Shown piece after piece: positions 32,866 to 64,000 of a stretch of 64,000 nt of DNA. The stretch is from the NCBI GenBank assembly GCA_019118935.1, contig DWXY01000124.1:1-64000 (forward strand), read 5' to 3'. Source of the DNA: Candidatus Oscillibacter pullicola (GTDB lineage Bacteria > Bacillota > Clostridia > Oscillospirales > Oscillospiraceae). The stretch's first letter is position 1. Every line of letters begins with the position of its first letter. The translations under genes and the position numbers were made by a program. The notes beneath the pieces are model-generated. The model made no database searches. It was not told where the DNA came from and saw only the letters and a program-made list of their open reading frames with translations.

Positions 32866-33144
32866 GGGAAACACATCCTTTCTGTATCAGACTCCCAGCC
32901 TTCCCGGCTGGTGCTTAACAAAGATACCACGCGGAGCCGCCGGTGTCTATGGCCGATCTCCATAAGATTTCTGGGAATTGTCAATTGTGGATTGTTATAT
33001 TGCATAAATAATTGTTAAATTTTTATACAATCAGCACAAAAATATGATTTGAACGAACAGATTCTGCAGAGAAATGGCCCCTCGACTGTTGGTTGATTGC
33101 CTTTCTCCCCCGGCTGGGGTACACTGAACGCGAGGTGAGGGACC

Positions 33145-34137
33145 ATGGACATGCACGCCTTCGGGCAATTCATTGCGGAGAACCGCCGGAAGCGGGGCCT
33201 GACCCAGCTGCAGCTGGCGGAGGCCCTCCACGTGACAGACAAGGCGGTAAGCAAGTGGGAGCGGGGCCTGAGCTTCCCGGATGTGACGCTGCTGGAGCCC
33301 CTGGCGGCCAAGCTGGAGCTGACGGTGGCGGAACTGATGGCCTGCCGCCGGCAGGAGAGTGCCGAATCGAAAGGGGTGGACGAGCCCATGCAGAACCTTT
33401 TGACGATCTCCCGGGCCAGCGTGCGGAAGGAGCGGCGGCGCTCCTGGCAGCGGCTGGCGGCGGTGCTGGTGCTGCTGGTGGTGACCGCCGCCGTGGCGGC
33501 GTGGAACGCTCTGATCCAGCGGGATCAATGTTCCACCAGCATCTATCTCAAGGAGACCGTCAATGGGGTGAATTATCTCTACATTGATGCGCTGGACGGC
33601 CATCTCCTGCGGCTCCGGTGCGGAGACGACATCGATTTTGACAGCCTCCAGACGGGATATGACGGCTATCGGATGGAATACGTATGGAATCAGGCCACAC
33701 ATCGCGGCGTAGTTTTCACTTGCACAGCGACTGGCTGGCCCTGTTACACGGGGAGCATTTATACCGGCTCCATTGATGACTCCGGCTATGTCAACTTCAT
33801 CTTTGGTTATACGACCCTGCAATTCCGGGGCGAAAATCATTTACAAGACCCCTATCTAGAGCCCAAGGGCCGGGTCTTTGTTTGTGACCTGCAGTTCTTT
33901 GTGGACAACCTGGAGACTGGCGAGGAGGAAACAGTTCTCTTTGTTAGGGGCTGTCTGAACCATACCTTTGCGGACATGGACGGCGACGGGGAACTGGAGA
34001 TCGTCATCCGCACCCGCTGGCCGGAAAAGCCCTACACCGTCTATGACATGGTGAACGGCGAGGTGGTGGCGGTGGACTGGCCGGACACGGTGCCGGAGGC
34101 GGTCCGGGAACAGCTGAAATGCATCTGGGAACAATGA
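33145..34137 (+). CDS. XRE-family HTH regulator with TM and extracytoplasmic domain
   Basis: IAENRRKRGLTQLQLAEALHVTDKAVSKWERGLSFPDVTLLEPLA, then RRSWQRLAAVLVLLVVTAAVAAW TM and a C-terminal domain. Confidence 0.85.
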   Translation: MDMHAFGQFIAENRRKRGLTQLQLAEALHVTDKAVSKWERGLSFPDVTLLEPLAAKLELTVAELMACRRQESAESKGVDEPMQNLLTISRASVRKERRRSWQRLAAVLVLLVVTAAVAAWNALIQRDQCSTSIYLKETVNGVNYLYIDALDGHLLRLRCGDDIDFDSLQTGYDGYRMEYVWNQATHRGVVFTCTATGWPCYTGSIYTGSIDDSGYVNFIFGYTTLQFRGENHLQDPYLEPKGRVFVCDLQFFVDNLETGEEETVLFVRGCLNHTFADMDGDGELEIVIRTRWPEKPYTVYDMVNGEVVAVDWPDTVPEAVREQLKCIWEQ

Positions 34138-38556: not shown

Positions 38557-39120
38557 GTGAGTAAGACAGACAGTCGCGCGGCCAGGCCGAAAGGCCGTCC
38601 GTGAGGAAAGTCCGGGCTCCACAGGGCAAGGATAACGGGTAACGCCCGCCGAAGGCGACTTCAGGAAAAGTGCAACAGAGATATACCGCCTCGTCGTCGC
38701 AAGCTCCATATCCTTCGCTGTCATCAGCGCAACCCACGATGACGGCGCCGTTCCACGTTGGTTCGGCAGGATACAGAGCGTGCAGCGCAACCGCGTCCCC
38801 CACTCCGGAAAGAACCCAGCGAAGCGGTTCTTTTCGGAAGAGGAGGAGCAGCGGAATGAGTGAGCTTTCGCCGCCAGGCGGAAGCGAAGGATATGGAGCT
38901 TGCGACGACGAGGTAAGGGTGGAAAGGTGCGGTAAGAGCGCACCCATCGGCTGGAGACTGTCCGATGCTGTAAACTCTATCCGGAGCAACACCGGTATGG
39001 GAGCAGGGGGTCCGACCCCCAAGGCTGGCCCGGCCGCTCCCGGGGTGGCTGGAGCGTATCGGCAACGATGCGTCGAGATAGATGACTGTCAAATACAGAA
39101 CCCGGCTTACAGTCTTGCTC
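38557..39120 (+). ncRNA. rnpB: RNase P RNA (class A-like) with expanded P12 region
   Basis: GAGGAAAGTCCGGGCTCCACAGGGCA, GGTAACGCCCGCCGAAGGCGA, AAAGTGCAACAGAGA, GGTAAGGGTGGAAAGGTGCGGTAAGAGCGCACC, ATAGATGACTGTC..ACAGAACCCGGCTTA; P1 GAGTAAGAC/GTCTTGCTC. Confidence 0.95.
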
Positions 39121-39126
39121 GTACAA

Positions 39127-46208: not shown

Positions 46209-46240
46209 TGATATTACCTCGTTTGTTTTTTATGATGTGA

Positions 46241-46980
46241 CCGTCCCGATGGGACGGGGGATTCAGCCATGCTGATAGCTGGGTCATTCCACCCCCCATT
46301 CTCTTTTTGTTCTTGACAAAAAGAGAACGGGCCGTGGACGGTCCAAGAGAAAAAATCGCTTTTGGTCGCGCTCCGGCACCTTCGTGCCTCCGCGCTGTAC
46401 GGGGGTCGGCGTGAGATGGTGCCTGCGGGTTTGCGAGGGCTTCCCGACGGGCGCGGCGGAGTGCGGTGCAGACTTGAACACTGACTCCCGCGGCGCGGTT
46501 CCGACAAAAATCGGGGTGCAAGAACGCATTTGACCAGCTCCTCTTTCCGCGCGTTCCGCTTCGCTACGCGCTACCCTGGCGGGCGTGGGGCTTGTACCAA
46601 ACAAGACAGAAAGCCTTCCGCATCCCCGTAGGGGCCGATGCCCTCATCGGCCCGCTGCACCGGCTCCCGTCAACCGCCAAGCCAGCGGCAGCGAAAAGAG
46701 AAGCAATTCAATGCGACGACCTCCCCGACGCCCTCCGCACCATCCACCACGGGACGGCAGTTGCAACCTCGCAGAAGAGCATAGCGTGCCCGAAGGTCAG
46801 GCCAAATCGGCGCTTGCACCGATCCGCCGACCCCCGTCGCGCGCGGAGGGCCACTGCACCGGAGCGCGCCTAAGCGGCCTTTTCTTTTGGACCGTGCACG
46901 GCCCGTTTTCTTTTCCGCAAGACGGAAAAGAAAATGGGGGGTGCATCCCGCTGGACCAGCCCCTTGCGGGAGCAAAGATT
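46241..46980. repeat. 0.7-kb foldback element, copy A
   Basis: Left core end CATTCTCTTTTTGTTCTTGACAAAAAGAGAACGGGCCGTGGACGGTCCAAGAGAAAAAA (from 46297); inverted counterpart to 46935; conserved core motif on minus strand; outer hairpins. Confidence 0.85.
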
Positions 46981-50605: not shown

Positions 50606-50703
50606 GGCGCTTTCCCTCCAGTTTACATACTGTAATAGTATAGCAAATTTTCCAGGGAAGCGCAACAGGGAAAACGCGGGGGGCGGTGGGGGCCCCACCG
50701 GGG

Positions 50704-51441
50704 GCTGCTCCCGCAGGGGGCCGTTTCCACGGGGGATGCGCCCCCCATTCTCTTTTTGGTCTTGCCCAAAAAGAGAACGCGCCGCGCCCGGTGTAAGAGA
50801 AAAAGGCGCTTTGACGCGCTCCGGTGCAGTGGCCCTCCGCGCGCGACGGGGGTCGGCGGATCGGTGCAAGCGCCGATTTGGGCTGGCCTTCGGGCACGCT
50901 ATCATCTTCTGCGATTCCTGTGACTGCCGTCCCGTGGCAGATGGTGCCGACCTCGTTGGGGTGGTCGTCGCATCGACTTCCTACTCTTTTCGCTGCCGCT
51001 GGCCGCTCCGCGCAGGAGCCGGTGCAACGGGCCGATGAGGGCATCAGCCCCTACAGGGAAGCGGAAGGCTTTCGGGCCTGTGTGGTGCACGCTGCCACGA
51101 TTGCCCGGGTAGCGCGTAGCGAAGCGGAACGCGTGGAAAGAGGAGCTGGTCAAATGCGTTCTTGCAACCCCGTTGACCTCCGCACCCGCGCCGCGGGAAT
51201 CAACTGTCAAGTCCGCACCGCACCACGCCGCGCCCGTCGGCAAGTCCTCGCAAACCCGCAGGCACCATCTCACACCGACCCCCGTACAGCGCGGAGAGCC
51301 ACTGCACCGGAGCGCGACTAAAGCGTTTTTTCTCTTTGGACCGTGCACGGCCCGTTTCTCTTTTGGCAAGACCAAAAGAGAAATGGGGGGTGCATCTGCC
51401 CAGCCATCAGCATGGCTGCCATTCCCGCGTCCAATGGGACG
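50704..51441. repeat. 0.7-kb foldback element, copy B (inverted relative to A)
   Basis: 113-nt TIRs 50746-50858 and 51273-51385; core GGTAGCGCGTAGCGAAGCGGAACGCGTGGAAAGAGGAGCTGGTCAAATGCGTTCTTGCA on plus strand. Confidence 0.88.
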
Positions 51442-57744: not shown

Positions 57745-57787
57745 CCAGTGATCTCCTTCAATGTAATATATCTTCGATATGGGGAGG

Positions 57788-58450
57788 CCGTCCCATTGGA
57801 CGGGGAATGACAGCCATGATGATGGCTGGGCATTTCCACCCCCCATTCTCTTTTTGCACGGCGACAAAAAGAGAACGGGCCGTGGACGGTCCAAGAGAAA
57901 AAACGCCTCGGCGGGTCGGTCTGCGCAGGCGCAGCCCTCCTGCCGCCGGCGGGGGATGGTTGGCAGTCCCGCGCGGCAGTCAGGGATGGAAACGCGATGC
58001 CCTTGGGGAGTCCTTTGGCCCGGGGATGTACAGGGATACCCCCTGCTTCTCTTTCCGTTGCCGCTGGCCCGGTGGTTGATGAAAGCCTCCGCAACGGGCC
58101 GATGGGAGCATCGGCTCCTACGACCGCTCGGGCAGCGCGTAGCGAAGCGGAACGCGTGGAAAGAGGAGCTGGTCAAATGCGTTCTTGCAACCCAATTTTC
58201 GTTGGCACCCGCGCCGCGGGAATCCGCTGTCAAGTCCGCACCGCACCCCGCCGCGCCCGTCGGAGCGCCATCTCAAACACGCAGGCACCACCTCACGCCG
58301 ACCCCCGTACAGCGACTTTGCACGTACGTGCAAAGTTGCGACCAAGCGCCTTTTTCTCTTCCACCGGGCGCGGCGCATTCTCTTTTTGGGCAAGACCAAA
58401 AAGAGAATGGGGGGCGCACCCCCTGTGGGAACAGCCCCCTGCGGGAGCAG
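57788..58450. repeat. 0.7-kb foldback element, copy C
   Basis: Core ends 57844 and 58409; core motif AGCGCGTAGCGAAGCGGAACGCGTGGAAAGAGGAGCTGGTCAAATGCGTTCTTGCA on plus strand; hairpin CAGCCATGATGATGGCTG at left end. Confidence 0.85.
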
Positions 58451-58471
58451 ACACCCTCCGCACGGGATGCC

Positions 58472-58921
58472 TCACAGCATCTCCTTGATCTCCTCGCAGA
58501 AGCTGGCCGCGGACTCCGTGTCCCGCATCACCAAAAAGGCCGTGTCGTCTCCCGCCAGGGACCCCACCATGTAGGCGACGCCCATGTCGTCCAGCGCGGC
58601 GCAGGCGGCGCTGGCCAGGCCCGGCATGGTCTTGATGACCACGATGTTCTGGGCGCTGTCGATGCTGGTAATGCTCTCCCGGAAGATGGTCCGCAGCTTC
58701 TCCGCGAAGTTCAGCCGGGTCCGGTTGCCGGACACGGCGTACTTGTACACCCCATGGCCCACCGGCTCCTTGATGAGGTGCATCTGCTTGATGTCCCGGG
58801 AGATGGTGGCCTGGGTGCTGGTGATCCCCCGCTCCTGGAGACGGACGAGCAGCTGCTCCTGGGTCTCGATATTCTCCTGGCTGATGATCTCCAGGATCAT
58901 GCTCTGCCGGTCATTTTTCAT
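58472..58921 (-). CDS. argR: Arginine repressor
   Basis: MILEIISQENIETQEQLLVRLQERGITSTQATISRDIKQMHLIKEP; GSLAGDDTAFLVM. Confidence 0.95.
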   Translation of the reverse strand: MKNDRQSMILEIISQENIETQEQLLVRLQERGITSTQATISRDIKQMHLIKEPVGHGVYKYAVSGNRTRLNFAEKLRTIFRESITSIDSAQNIVVIKTMPGLASAACAALDDMGVAYMVGSLAGDDTAFLVMRDTESAASFCEEIKEML

Positions 58922-59789
58922 CTTCAAATCCTCCTGGCAGCATTTTTTGCGCAAAGATCTCGCAGAAGCTCCGCTCCGACAGCCGCACCAGCCGCACGGT
59001 GTGCTTGGACCGGCGGACCTGGATCTTGTCGTCGGCCTTCAGGGAGAAGGCCCGGCTCTCGTCCACGAACAGGTACACCGGCTTGCGGCCGTTGCGCTCC
59101 AGCTCGATGGTCAGCGTGTGCTCCGGCGAGAGGACATAGGACGAAAAGCGCATGTTGTGGGTGCAGATGGGACAGACCACCATGGTCTGGGCCACCGGCT
59201 CCACCACCGGCCCGCCGGCGGAGAGCGAATAGGCCGTGGACCCGGTGGGGGTGGCCACGATGACGCCGTCCCCGGCGATGTCCGCCAGGTGCCGGCCGTC
59301 GGAGGAGATCTTCAGATGGATCACGTGGGAGATGGGGCCCTCCCGGATCACCGCGTCGTTGAGGCCCAGATTCGTGTAGATCTGGCGGCCCTCCCGCTGG
59401 ACGGTCACGTCCAGCATCATCCGCTGCTCCGTCTGGAAGTCCCAGTCCTTCAGCTTCCGCAAGGCCTCCAGCTCCCCGGCCTCCAGCTCCGCGATGAAGC
59501 CCAGGCCCCCCATGTTGATGCCCAGCACCGGGATCTTGTTCAGGGCCACCAGCTTGGCCAGGTGCAGGATGGTGCCGTCCCCGCCGAAGGTGATCAGCAG
59601 GTCGGCGCTTTTCAGCTCCGCCGTCAGGGGCCGGGTCTTGTAGTCCCCGTAGGCCCCGTCCTTCTGGTCCTTGAAGGGGGGGCACACCACCGTCTGGAAG
59701 CCCATCTCCCGCAAAATGGCGTCCGCCCTGCGGGTGGCCTCCATGCCCCGGTCCCGGTTGGGGTTGGGGCATAGGATGATCTTTTTCAT
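58911..59789 (-). CDS. nadK: NAD kinase
   Basis: LLITFGGDGTILHLAKL, GINMGGLGFIAELE, ATPTGSTAYSLSAGGP. Confidence 0.97.
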   Translation of the reverse strand: MKKIILCPNPNRDRGMEATRRADAILREMGFQTVVCPPFKDQKDGAYGDYKTRPLTAELKSADLLITFGGDGTILHLAKLVALNKIPVLGINMGGLGFIAELEAGELEALRKLKDWDFQTEQRMMLDVTVQREGRQIYTNLGLNDAVIREGPISHVIHLKISSDGRHLADIAGDGVIVATPTGSTAYSLSAGGPVVEPVAQTMVVCPICTHNMRFSSYVLSPEHTLTIELERNGRKPVYLFVDESRAFSLKADDKIQVRRSKHTVRLVRLSERSFCEIFAQKMLPGGFEDEK

Positions 59790-60610
59790 GGATTGCCTCC
59801 CTCTCCGTGCTCTTTCAGGGTCTGGTGGGACTCATCCACCAGGGCCTTGAGGTCAAATGTACGCTCCTGCCAGGGACCCTTTTCCAGATACCCCAGGTAC
59901 TCGATGTTCCCCTCCGGGCCCCGGATGGGGGAATAGGTCAGCCCCAGCACCGCGAAGCCCGCGTCCCTGGCGTGGTCCAGAAAGTGCTCCAGCACCTCCA
60001 GGTGGACCGCCGGGTCCCGGACCACGCCCTTCTTCCCCACCTTCTCGCGCCCGGCCTCGAACTGGGGCTTCACCAGGCAGGCGGCGTGGCCGCCGTCCTT
60101 CAGCAGCCCGTTCAGGGGCGGCAGGATCAGCTTCAGGGAGATGAAGCTCACGTCCACGGAGGCGAAGTCCAGCTCGTCCGGCACCTGCTCGTGGGTGAGG
60201 TACCGGGCGTTGGTCCGCTCCAGGCACACCACCCTCGGGTCACTGCGGAGCTTCCAGGCCAGCTGGCCGTAGCCCACGTCCACGGCGTAGACCTTTTCCG
60301 CGCCGTTTTGCAGCATGCAGTCGGTGAAGCCGCCGGTGGAGGCACCGATGTCGGCGCAGACCGCGCCGTTCAGGTCGATGGGGAAGGCCGCCATGGCCTT
60401 CTCCAGCTTCAACCCACCCCGGCTGACGTATGCCAGCGTACCGCCCCGGACCTCGATCTGGGCGTCCTCCGCCACGGCGGTGCCGGGCTTGTCCACCCGC
60501 TGGCCGTTCACAAAGACCTCGCCGCTCATGATGACCGCCTGGGCCCGCTGACGGCTCTCCTGAAGGCCCCGCTCCGTCAGCAGGACGTCCAGCCGTTTTT
60601 TTCCGCTCAT
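59786..60610 (-). CDS. tlyA: TlyA family rRNA (cytidine-2'-O)-methyltransferase
   Basis: KKRLDVLLTERGLQESRQRAQAVIMSGEVFVNGQRVDKPG; YVSRGGLKLEKAM; DIGASTGGFTDCMLQNGA. Confidence 0.95.
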   Translation of the reverse strand: MSGKKRLDVLLTERGLQESRQRAQAVIMSGEVFVNGQRVDKPGTAVAEDAQIEVRGGTLAYVSRGGLKLEKAMAAFPIDLNGAVCADIGASTGGFTDCMLQNGAEKVYAVDVGYGQLAWKLRSDPRVVCLERTNARYLTHEQVPDELDFASVDVSFISLKLILPPLNGLLKDGGHAACLVKPQFEAGREKVGKKGVVRDPAVHLEVLEHFLDHARDAGFAVLGLTYSPIRGPEGNIEYLGYLEKGPWQERTFDLKALVDESHQTLKEHGEGGNP

Positions 60611-62457
60611 GTATGCGCCTCCTGTACCGCCCGGGCGATGCCCGCGGCGTCGATTCCGGCCTCCTGTTCCAGCTGGGGCACCGTGCCCTCCGGCAGGAAG
60701 GTCTTGCCCAGGTTGATGAGCACCAGCTTCTCCGGCGCCTGGCCGTGCTGGGCCAGGATGGCCGCCGCCCGCTGGCCCACGCACCCGGCGCCGAAGGCGT
60801 CCTCCGCCACCGCCAGCAGCTTCTTCCCCGCCAGCCAGGGCGCCAGCGTCTCATACTCCAGGGGGGAGATCTGATTCAGCTTCAGCACCTCCGTCCGGAT
60901 GCCCTGCCGTTCCAGCAGGTCCGCCGCCGCCAGGGCCTGGTTCACCAGCACGCCGTAGGTGAGGATGGCGGCGTCCGCCCCCTCCCGGAGCCGGACCACC
61001 GGCGCGCCGGACCGGTCCTCCCGGTAATCGCCCTCGCCGCCCCGGGGATACCGGACCGCCACAGGGCCGTCGATCTCAAACAATGCCTGCCGCAGCATCC
61101 GCCGCAGCTCCGCGAAGCTGGCGGGGCACAGCACCGTGAACCCCGGGATCTCCGACAGGAACAGCGCGTCGAAGCAGCCGTGGTGGGTCTCGCCGTCGGC
61201 GCCCACCAGACCCGCCCGGTCCACCCCCAGCACCACATGGAGCTGCTGGAGGGCCACGTCGTGGATCAGCATGTCGTAGCCCCGCTGCAGGAAGGACGAG
61301 TACACGGCAAACACCGGGAGCATCCCCTGCTTGGCAAGGCCCGCCGCCATTGCCACCCCGTGCCCCTCGGCGATGGCCACGTCGAAGAACCGGTCCGGGA
61401 ACTCCCTGGCAAAGGGGGCAAGGCCGGTGCCGTCCGCCATGGCGGCGGTGATGGCGCAGACCCGCCCGTCCTCTGCGGCGCAGGCGGCCAGCGTCTTGCC
61501 GAACACGGCGGAGAAGTCGTCTCCCCCGCTCTTCTTCACAAGACCCGTCTCCGGGTCGAAGGGGCCCACGCCGTGGAACTTGTCCGGGTTCTGCTCCGCG
61601 AAGGCGTAGCCCTTGCCCTTCACCGTCTTCACATGGACCACCACCGGGCACTGGAGCTCCCGGGCCCAGGCCAGCACGTGGACCAGCCGGTCTAGGTCGT
61701 GGCCGTCGATGGGCCCCAGGTAGGTGAAGCCCATGTCCTCGAACAGGGTGCTGCCGGGCCACAGGGCCTTTTTCAGGGACGTCTTCACCTTGTGGTTGAA
61801 CCGGTACAGCCGGTTCTCCATGGGGTGCTGGCCGAAGAGGCTCCGGTACCACTTTTTAAAGTGATAGTAGGCGGGCTTGGAGCGGATCTGGCTCAGATGG
61901 CTGTCCACCGCCCCCACGTTGGGGTTGATGGACATGCCGTTGTCATTGAGGATCACGATCAGGGGCTCGCCGGAGGCGCCGGCGTTATTGAGCCCCTCGT
62001 AGGCCAGCCCCCCGGTGAGGGCGCCGTCCCCGATCAGGGCCAGAACGCTGTAATCCCCATGCTGTAAAGTTCTTGCCCTTGCCATTCCAAGAGCCACGGA
62101 AACGGAGTTGGAGGCGTGTCCGGCGATGAAGGCGTCGTGTTCGCTCTCCCGGGGCTTGGGGAAGCCGGAGAGGCCGCCGAACTGCCGCAGGGTGTCAAAC
62201 AGCGCCTGCCGGCCCGTGAGGGCCTTGTGGACGTAGCACTGGTGCCCCACGTCGAACACCAGCCGGTCCTTCGACGTGTCGAAGACCCGGTGGATGGCCA
62301 CCGTCAGCTCCACCGCCCCCAGGTTGGAGGCCAGATGCCCGCCGGTTTTGGACACATGCTCCACCAGGAACTGCCGCAGCTCCCGGCACAGGGGCTCCAG
62401 CTGGTCCCGGTCCAGGGCCTTCACGTCCGCCGGGGTATGGATATTCTCTAAGATCAA
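60607..62457 (-). CDS. dxs: 1-deoxy-D-xylulose-5-phosphate synthase
   Basis: TGGHLASNLGAVELTVAIHRVFDTSKDRLVFDVGHQCYVHKALTGR; GDGALTGGLAYEGLNNAG; QRGYDMLIHDVALQ. Confidence 0.97.
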   Translation of the reverse strand: MILENIHTPADVKALDRDQLEPLCRELRQFLVEHVSKTGGHLASNLGAVELTVAIHRVFDTSKDRLVFDVGHQCYVHKALTGRQALFDTLRQFGGLSGFPKPRESEHDAFIAGHASNSVSVALGMARARTLQHGDYSVLALIGDGALTGGLAYEGLNNAGASGEPLIVILNDNGMSINPNVGAVDSHLSQIRSKPAYYHFKKWYRSLFGQHPMENRLYRFNHKVKTSLKKALWPGSTLFEDMGFTYLGPIDGHDLDRLVHVLAWARELQCPVVVHVKTVKGKGYAFAEQNPDKFHGVGPFDPETGLVKKSGGDDFSAVFGKTLAACAAEDGRVCAITAAMADGTGLAPFAREFPDRFFDVAIAEGHGVAMAAGLAKQGMLPVFAVYSSFLQRGYDMLIHDVALQQLHVVLGVDRAGLVGADGETHHGCFDALFLSEIPGFTVLCPASFAELRRMLRQALFEIDGPVAVRYPRGGEGDYREDRSGAPVVRLREGADAAILTYGVLVNQALAAADLLERQGIRTEVLKLNQISPLEYETLAPWLAGKKLLAVAEDAFGAGCVGQRAAAILAQHGQAPEKLVLINLGKTFLPEGTVPQLEQEAGIDAAGIARAVQEAHT

Positions 62458-62473: not shown

Positions 62474-63052
62474 TCAGCGGTGGAACAGGTGCAGAAACCG
62501 TCCCACCCAGTAGACCACGCTGGTGCTTTTGTTCAGGGCCACCGTCTTGCCCAGGGCCTTGCCGCCGATGGTGAGGCCGGACACCAGGGCCGTCACCGCC
62601 ACGCTCAGCAGCACGCTCTCCGGCAGGGCGAAGGCCGTCTGGAGCCGCACCACGATCACGGCGGTGGTGGTGCCGCTGACGATGCCGCAGATGTCCCCCA
62701 CCACGTCGTTGCAGACGCTGGACACCCGCCCGGCGTTCCGCAGCAGGACCAGCGCCTCCTTGGCGCCGGGCTCCTTGTGGGCGGCCATGGAGTGAAAGGG
62801 CCTGGGGTCCGCCGCCGTGACCGCCACGCCGATGATGTCGAACAGGATGCCCAGGCCGATGAACACCGCCAGCACCAGCGCGGCAGCCGCCGCGCCCGCG
62901 CCGCTGAGACTGGTCTCCGACGCAAGGCTCAATGCCGCGGACAGGACGATGGCAAGAAAAAAGACCTGCACGGCCCACCGGTAGGGGCCCGGCCTCTCCC
63001 GCTCCCGTCCGCGCTTTCGCTTTGGGGTATCGCTCAAAAAAAGTCCCTCCAC
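62474..63052 (-). CDS. oapA: OapA-like OLE RNA-associated membrane protein
   Basis: About 192 aa with four TM segments (ALVLAVFIGLGILFDIIGVAVTAAD; VGDICGIVSGTTTAVIVVRL), between the OLE-like RNA and dxs. Identification leans on synteny and size. Confidence 0.65.
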   Translation of the reverse strand: MEGLFLSDTPKRKRGRERERPGPYRWAVQVFFLAIVLSAALSLASETSLSGAGAAAAALVLAVFIGLGILFDIIGVAVTAADPRPFHSMAAHKEPGAKEALVLLRNAGRVSSVCNDVVGDICGIVSGTTTAVIVVRLQTAFALPESVLLSVAVTALVSGLTIGGKALGKTVALNKSTSVVYWVGRFLHLFHR

Positions 63053-63067
63053 TTGGGAATGAATTCA

Positions 63068-63728
63068 AGTTGGCTAAGCCGGCGGCGGCGGAAAAGGTAA
63101 ATCTTACGGCTTAGGTACGGGTTGGATTTCCCCGCGGCACACCTCTCGTTGCCGATGGAGGCGGTTCCCCCTTCGGTGCCGCGGCACAGTGTCGCCAGCC
63201 ATGCCACCCGATCGCCACTTAGTCCGCACTGCAATCCCTTTTCAGCCCGGTCAGGACAGCCTAGGTGATTTCCACCCCAGTCGATCCGTCCCTTTAGCCT
63301 CTTTTGCAAACCGGGTTTCAGGGGGCGATCAAACGGGCCCTCCGGCCAGAGGGCCCCGCCTGTTGTTCCCCCATCCACCCGCCTCACGCAAGGCAGGCTA
63401 CGTCTGCACACAGCGTTACGGCCCCCCAGGGCCGATGCACCGCGCTGCAGGTTCATCAGCTGCTTCGTACGCGGCCCGGAATACCACACTGGGAGTACGT
63501 CCGCGCACAAGAACAGGTCTCCACGGAAACAGGGTCATCATCACCATGCCATTGGAAAGCGCCCTGAGTCCGCAAGCGCAGGCAAAGCCAGGCTTCCCCC
63601 CAGCACCCACCCGAAACTGGGCGTATCAAGCAGGCACCAGAGGTTTCATCGGTGTGCCCTTCAGAGGATTTTTAGCCCCTCCTTCGGAGACGGATGATCT
63701 GACTAGAATACTGCGCCGCCGCTTAGCG
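63068..63728 (-). ncRNA. ole: Putative OLE RNA (ornate, large, extremophilic)
   Basis: About 650-nt non-coding interval with stable hairpins, dedicated promoter, directly upstream of an oapA-like gene in ispA/dxs/tlyA/argR context; 3' stem CTAAGCC/GGCTTAG. Confidence 0.72.
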
Positions 63729-63734
63729 CCATAC

Positions 63735-63763
63735 AGTATATCACAAATCTAATAAATATACAA
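63735..63763 (-). promoter_or_regulatory. Promoter of putative OLE RNA
   Basis: Minus strand TTGTAT-N17-TATACT. Confidence 0.65.
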
Positions 63764-63843
63764 CATATTCCGTATATGCGTCCGTAAATTTTTTGTGACC
63801 GGCCGGGCTGTCCTCCCGGGGCGGACAGCCCCCGGCACCGGGC

Positions 63844-63872
63844 AGAAAAAGGGCCGCCGGACGGCGGCCCCC
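63844..63872 (-). terminator. Rho-independent terminator after ispA-like gene
   Basis: Minus strand GGGCCGCCGTCCGGCGGCCCTTTTT. Confidence 0.8.
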
Positions 63873-63877
63873 GCTCT

Positions 63878-64000
63878 TCACTTGTTCCGCTCCGCCAGGG
63901 AGTCCGCCAGGGCGGCCAGGAAGCCGTCCGTGTCCCAGTCCGCCACCGCGGCCTTGGCCGCCTCCGTGCGGGCGCGGACCGCCCGGCCGCAGCCCTCCAG
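63878..64000 (-). CDS. C-terminus of polyprenyl synthetase (IspA-like), truncated by window end
   Basis: Minus-strand frame ...LEGCGRAVRARTEAAKAAVADWDTDGFLAALADSLAERNK*; short partial, supported by context. Confidence 0.5.
   Translation of the reverse strand: MEGCGRAVRARTEAAKAAVADWDTDGFLAALADSLAERNK

Follow-up and report, generated by a model that had tools for sequence, protein, structure and literature searches.

OLE RNAs are among the largest structured bacterial RNAs that lack a known biochemical task in any species. Membrane localisation, high abundance, dimers and stress phenotypes of OLE RNA have been described in other species (PMC12265935, PMC12286853). In H. halodurans, D100 and D104 are the residues of the partner protein OapA that were mutated in the PM1 mutant (PMC9723947), and ArgR has been reported to bind OLE RNA, with argR often located near ole (PMC10898510). 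Fernando & Breaker (2024) reported 2,822 OLE matches in Bacillota, together with variants 1 and 2 (TANB77, RF39), in which P7/P8 are shortened or missing and which mostly occur without OapB/OapC (PMC11332333). Our literature search found no paper joining OLE and Oscillibacter.

We analysed a 64-kb stretch of DNA (the window) from an Oscillibacter relative, in which an initial annotation had noticed a non-coding interval of about 650 nt on the minus strand and had read it as a putative OLE RNA. We established the OLE identity of this RNA, its structure, the gene order around it, the three partner genes, the co-occurrence with OapA and the anticorrelation with MpfA. Taken as a whole, the interval is almost certainly an ole gene with its own promoter, whose full-length RNA would form an OLE particle like that of H. 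halodurans.

OLE RNA: identity, structure and extent

An all-Rfam covariance search of the window returned OLE and RNase P alone. The OLE match (RF01071) scored 384.3 bits (E = 1e-110; gathering score, 50), with model positions 1–616 all aligned. The cmscan comparison that the initial annotation had proposed was therefore positive, and instead of no OLE match, or a match to another RNA family, the interval gave one strong match, to RF01071. The span originally called (63068–63763) thus amounts to the RNA together with its promoter. A covariance search found one ole copy in the genome, a draft assembly of 161 contigs. A mir-650 match inside the OLE region was dismissed as chance (20.7 bits, against a gathering score of 100).

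The interval had also been described as having no open reading frame, whereas frames of 158 aa (minus strand) and 187 aa (plus strand) cross it, as expected because the DNA is GC-rich (the G+C content of the OLE RNA is 61%). These frames are the point in favour of a rival reading, that the interval is coding, or a non-coding feature other than OLE RNA. That reading is refuted by the E-value of 1e-110 to OLE and by covariation in 110 relatives; the adjoining oapA gene also speaks against it, and we give it a negligible probability.

The evidence for the fold of the OLE RNA was obtained by projecting the Rfam OLE pairs onto the query, aligning 110 distinct relatives and counting pairs. Standard base pairs are formed by 143 of the 157 Rfam pairs in the query; across the relatives, 88.1% of the cells were paired, compared with 39–49% when the 3′ partner was slid by 1–3 columns, and two-sided changes occurred in 113 of the 157 pairs, versus 62–79 in the slid controls. 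The non-coding interval noticed at the outset is confirmed, and is explained by a covarying RNA structure. A further 14-bp terminal helix (Table 1), outside the Rfam pairs, covaries within the family, with compensatory variants in relatives that include GCTAAGC/GCTTAGC, GCTGAAC/GTTCAGC and ACTGAACAG/CTGTTCAGT; its outer half is missing from many distant relatives. From this helix, we place the likely ends of the transcript at about 63730 and about 63073.

Relative to RF01071, the cmscan alignment has insertions only and no large deletions. Because there are insertions rather than absent stems, P7/P8 are not missing, and the predicted RNA belongs to the full-length class of PMC11332333, being neither variant 1 nor variant 2.

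Table 1. Position and evidence for each element of the ole locus
Feature	Position	Strand	Evidence
ispA 3′ end (293-aa polyprenyl synthetase; runs past window)	63878..64000	minus	PF00348, 188.5 bits
Upstream inverted-repeat element TATACGGAATATGTTGTATATTTAT	63752..63776	minus	conserved in Oscillibacter group
-35 hexamer TTGTAT	63758..63763	minus	sequence; position conserved in relatives
ARG-box-like element TTGTATATTTATTAGA, overlaps -35; candidate ArgR operator	63748..63763	minus	inferred; argG PWM, 9.45 bits
Extended -10 hexamer TATACT, TGA just before	63735..63740	minus	17 nt from -35
OLE RNA (ole gene), full-length form	63066..63735	minus	cmscan RF01071 and covariation, 110 relatives
Terminal helix, 5′ strand GCUAAGCGGCGGCG	63714..63727	minus	compensatory changes in relatives
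Terminal helix, 3′ strand, one bulged G	63073..63087	minus	covariation
oapA Shine-Dalgarno GGAGGG	63045..63050	minus	sequence
oapA, 187 aa, TTG start	62474..63037	minus	PF01595, fold, co-occurrence
dxs, isoprenoid pathway	60607..62457	minus	TIGR00204, 671 bits
tlyA-type rRNA methyltransferase	59786..60616	minus	TIGR00478, 284 bits
nadK (NAD kinase)	58911..59789	minus	PF20143, PF01513
argR (arginine repressor)	58472..58954	minus	TIGR01529, 131.6 bits

Neighbourhood, partner proteins and MpfA

On the minus strand, the genes run in the order spoIIIAE, spoIIIAF, two genes that by position are spoIIIAG and spoIIIAH, asp23, nusB, xseA, a putative xseB and ispA, followed by ole, oapA, dxs, tlyA, nadK and argR. 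The downstream genes dxs, tlyA, nadK and argR had been named correctly, each being recovered by an HMM, and the same holds for the ispA-like C-terminus upstream, after which a GC hairpin and T run, the proposed terminator, can be read at 63870–63846. As judged from these gene predictions, the surroundings of ole (isoprenoid genes, argR, nadK, tlyA, nusB and sporulation genes) are the usual OLE setting.

The gene directly 3′ of ole had been annotated as OapA-like and placed at 62474–63052. The gene stands, but the TTG at 63037, 7 nt past the GGAGGG sequence, is a likelier start than the GTG at 63052; translation would then begin about 36 nt past the OLE terminal helix. The product matches PF01595 (CNNM/DUF21) with 21.2 bits (E 2.5e-4), which is under Pfam's own cut-off. 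Its AlphaFold model (pLDDT 82) has four long helices, and the five best PDB matches found with Foldseek are all CNNM/CorC transmembrane domains, these matches being weak (E 0.03 to 0.6; TM-scores near 0.4–0.5). No meaningful match was obtained with phmmer against the PDB, and NCBIfam gave no OapA model match. All 40 sequences compared have the two aspartates D111 and D115, which can be equated, by spacing alone, with D100 and D104 of H. halodurans. The nearest OapA, at 93% identity, is that of 'Candidatus Oscillibacter excrementigallinarum', which places the window in an Oscillibacter relative. Together with the weak PF01595 match and the five fold matches, the strict co-occurrence with OLE described below identifies the predicted product as OapA, a four-helix CNNM-like protein, so that the check proposed for this gene was positive too.

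Two further partner genes lie elsewhere in the genome, namely oapB, which is flanked by map and infA and has 'OLE-associated protein B' as its best PDB match (E 4e-8), and a gene for OapC/YbxF, between rpoC and rpsL (PDB match YbxF, E 1e-12). By these sequence matches, all three established partners, OapA, OapB and OapC, are encoded in the host genome.

OLE RNAs had been characterised at the outset as rare and as belonging to extremophilic and anaerobic Firmicutes. The first two terms do not suit the present case, given that OLE was found in 69 of the 197 genomes sampled from the order, and in 33 of 121 from the family, and that the host is a gut anaerobe. With a presence cut-off of E below 1e-40, OapA was found in exactly the 33 OLE-bearing genomes of the family; a 34th, weak match (E 3e-5) sits next to genes of CorC type. 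MpfA-type exporters, counted by their CorC/HlyC domain, showed the opposite pattern, being present in 8 of the 33 OLE genomes, always as one gene copy, versus 79 of the 88 family genomes that lack OLE, 53 of which carry two or three copies (Fisher p = 6e-12, with genomes counted as independent despite their kinship). This anticorrelation had already been reported by Fernando & Breaker (2024; PMC11332333), and is repeated here within one family. Since OLE/OapA and MpfA largely substitute for each other within that family, the distribution supports a common role in Mg2+ handling. The swap is incomplete, as the window's genome retains one MpfA-type (CorC_HlyC) gene (G000 C83:11754-11975) and a genome of the same genus (G269) likewise has one.

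Within one genus of the set (g121), one member of the pair G206/G300 has OLE and OapA without an MpfA-type gene and the other the reverse, making them a natural pair for replacement studies. A full-length dxs match is absent in both.

The ole promoter and its candidate regulators

The TTGTAT-N17-TATACT promoter was located where the initial annotation had claimed it. Its -35/-10 arrangement recurs in relatives at a fixed distance from the OLE RNA, and we consider the predicted promoter to be real and conserved. Based on 95 non-redundant ole upstream regions, a de novo motif, CTTGtATATT(ca), was found at the -35. While the OLE RNA itself is of a known kind, the resemblance of this promoter element to an arginine-regulator binding site is, tentatively, a new lead.

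One explanation is that ole transcription is under the control of ArgR through the ARG-box-like site at -35, which would be an addition to the main explanation of the locus and not an opponent of it. The idea is reasonable given the reported binding of ArgR to the OLE RNA of H. halodurans and the frequent presence of argR nearby (PMC10898510, which was also the sole match in a literature search on the ole promoter and the ARG box). We used an ARG box PWM (TTGcATAATTATgCAA) trained on 28 argG promoters of the same group alone. The ole site at 63748–63763 is the second-best match to this PWM in the window; the ole upstream regions score 3.95 under it, compared with at most 0.75 for dinucleotide shuffles, and none of 500 permuted PWMs equalled it. 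This enrichment is absent from the RNase P upstream regions that served as the control set. In the reverse test, the ole motif matched 71% of argG upstream regions versus 4% of RNase P upstream regions, and TTGNATAWT occurred at the -35 of 38 of 80 ole promoter candidates versus 2 of 68 ordinary candidates from these loci, counts of this kind being inflated by related sequences. Against ArgR control stand the half-site spacing of the ole element, which is unlike that of an ARG box, and the degenerate right half-site of the window's copy (9.4 bits, whereas the argG site of the same organism scores 16.3). In addition, argG shows no enrichment (z = 0.1) of TATAC-N10-GTATA, the palindrome that is strongest at ole. 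Lastly, the CodY consensus, included as a control, reached z = 9.0 on the same ole set, compared with 5.8–7.0 for ARG, and because this control scored as high, we held back from the step 'ARG box, hence ArgR'. Overall, we regard ArgR control of ole as possible, at rather less than an even chance.

The CodY score also counts in favour of a second explanation, to which we give nearly an even chance, that the -35 element is the target of another regulator, whether CodY-type or other, or is an unusual core promoter without a dedicated regulator. The separate TATAC-N10-GTATA element and the fixed position of the de novo motif (CTTGtATATTca) at -35 are in keeping with this explanation. On the other hand, the other promoter candidates at these loci seldom carry TTGNATAWT, and argG promoters have the ole motif in common, which is not what this explanation would lead one to expect. 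A literal search with the 25-nt upstream element found the ole loci plus one extra copy in a same-genus genome, near genes for an aldehyde dehydrogenase and a transposase; this extra copy is not informative as to which regulator is involved. That genome also appears as Oscillibacter sp. PC13.

Were the -35 element an ArgR site, it would offer a direct and inexpensive test of the reason for the position of argR beside ole and for the binding of ArgR to the RNA. One could then imagine a loop in Oscillospiraceae, encoded in one cluster, in which arginine sets the supply of OLE RNA via ArgR and OLE RNA in turn binds ArgR, a proposal that we judge less likely than not to hold.

Several other features of the window deserve mention. 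Its top ARG-box-like site, at 33000–33030 (11.9 bits, with a second site of 7.6 bits), lies just 5′ of a gene at 33145 for a 330-aa helix-turn-helix regulator. The start of this gene is spanned by one arm of a 359-nt inverted repeat (33144–33502/40004–40362, 80% complementary), and the two arms therefore probably represent two related genes in opposite orientation. The RNase P RNA (class A; 38558–39125, plus strand) is 568 nt long, versus a 367-position model, with about 210 nt extra in one stem (the P12 region); an inverted repeat of 31 bp without mismatches (38689–38719/38883–38913) closes this extra part. Lengths in relatives run between about 345 and 580 nt. There are also three copies (46231–46947, 50700–51396 and 57778–58455) of an interspersed repeat of some 600–700 bp bordered by CCCCCCATTCTCTTTTTG...AAAAAGAGAA, which occur in both orientations and are 76–92% alike in parts; one copy lies between argR and a tgt-like gene.

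Proposed working and comparison with known systems

The genome holds a complete OLE system, comprising the RNA and the oapA, oapB and oapC genes, in an Oscillibacter relative of the animal gut. The transcription, processing, dimerisation, membrane location and stress role of the RNA we infer from other species. The conserved sigma-A-type promoter would give an OLE RNA in its full length, about 660 nt, with extra transcription probably arising by operon read-through. The RNA would close via the terminal helix, fold into the OLE architecture and, by analogy with H. halodurans and with the Clostridium OLE cryo-EM, dimerise. If it works as in H. halodurans, OapA, with its four CNNM-like helices, would hold the RNA at or through the membrane, and OapB and OapC would bind it. 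By the same analogy, the resulting particle may help the cell to keep its metal balance and to withstand cold, excess Mg2+, alcohols or a poor carbon source, and in relatives that lack OLE this work may fall to MpfA-type Mg2+ exporters. Since the isolate Oscillibacter sp. PC13 has the same locus, experiments beyond H. halodurans look possible.

The closest known counterpart is the full-length OLE of H. halodurans, with which the locus shares the whole 616-position model, oapA directly 3′, the conserved blocks GCAGUAUUCUAGUCAGA, CUAAAAAUCC, the P9 loop with UGGCC and GGGAUU..AGUGCGGACUAAGUGG, the nearby dxs, tlyA, nadK, argR, ispA, nusB and sporulation genes, an own promoter, also reported there, and encoded OapB and OapC. 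It differs from that model member in having a GC-rich RNA, insertions in several of the stems and joining regions, a retained MpfA-type gene and a conserved -35 element that is not TTGACA. In contrast to the Rfam OLE consensus, its terminal helix is GC-rich and is not followed by a U tract. The variant 1 and 2 RNAs likewise occur in uncultured gut Bacillota; unlike them, the present RNA has insertions instead of lost stems, and its genome encodes OapB and OapC. OapA, finally, shares the CNNM transmembrane fold with the MpfA/CorC (CNNM) Mg2+ exporters but is without their CBS and CorC/HlyC domains, and occurs in the family only with OLE.
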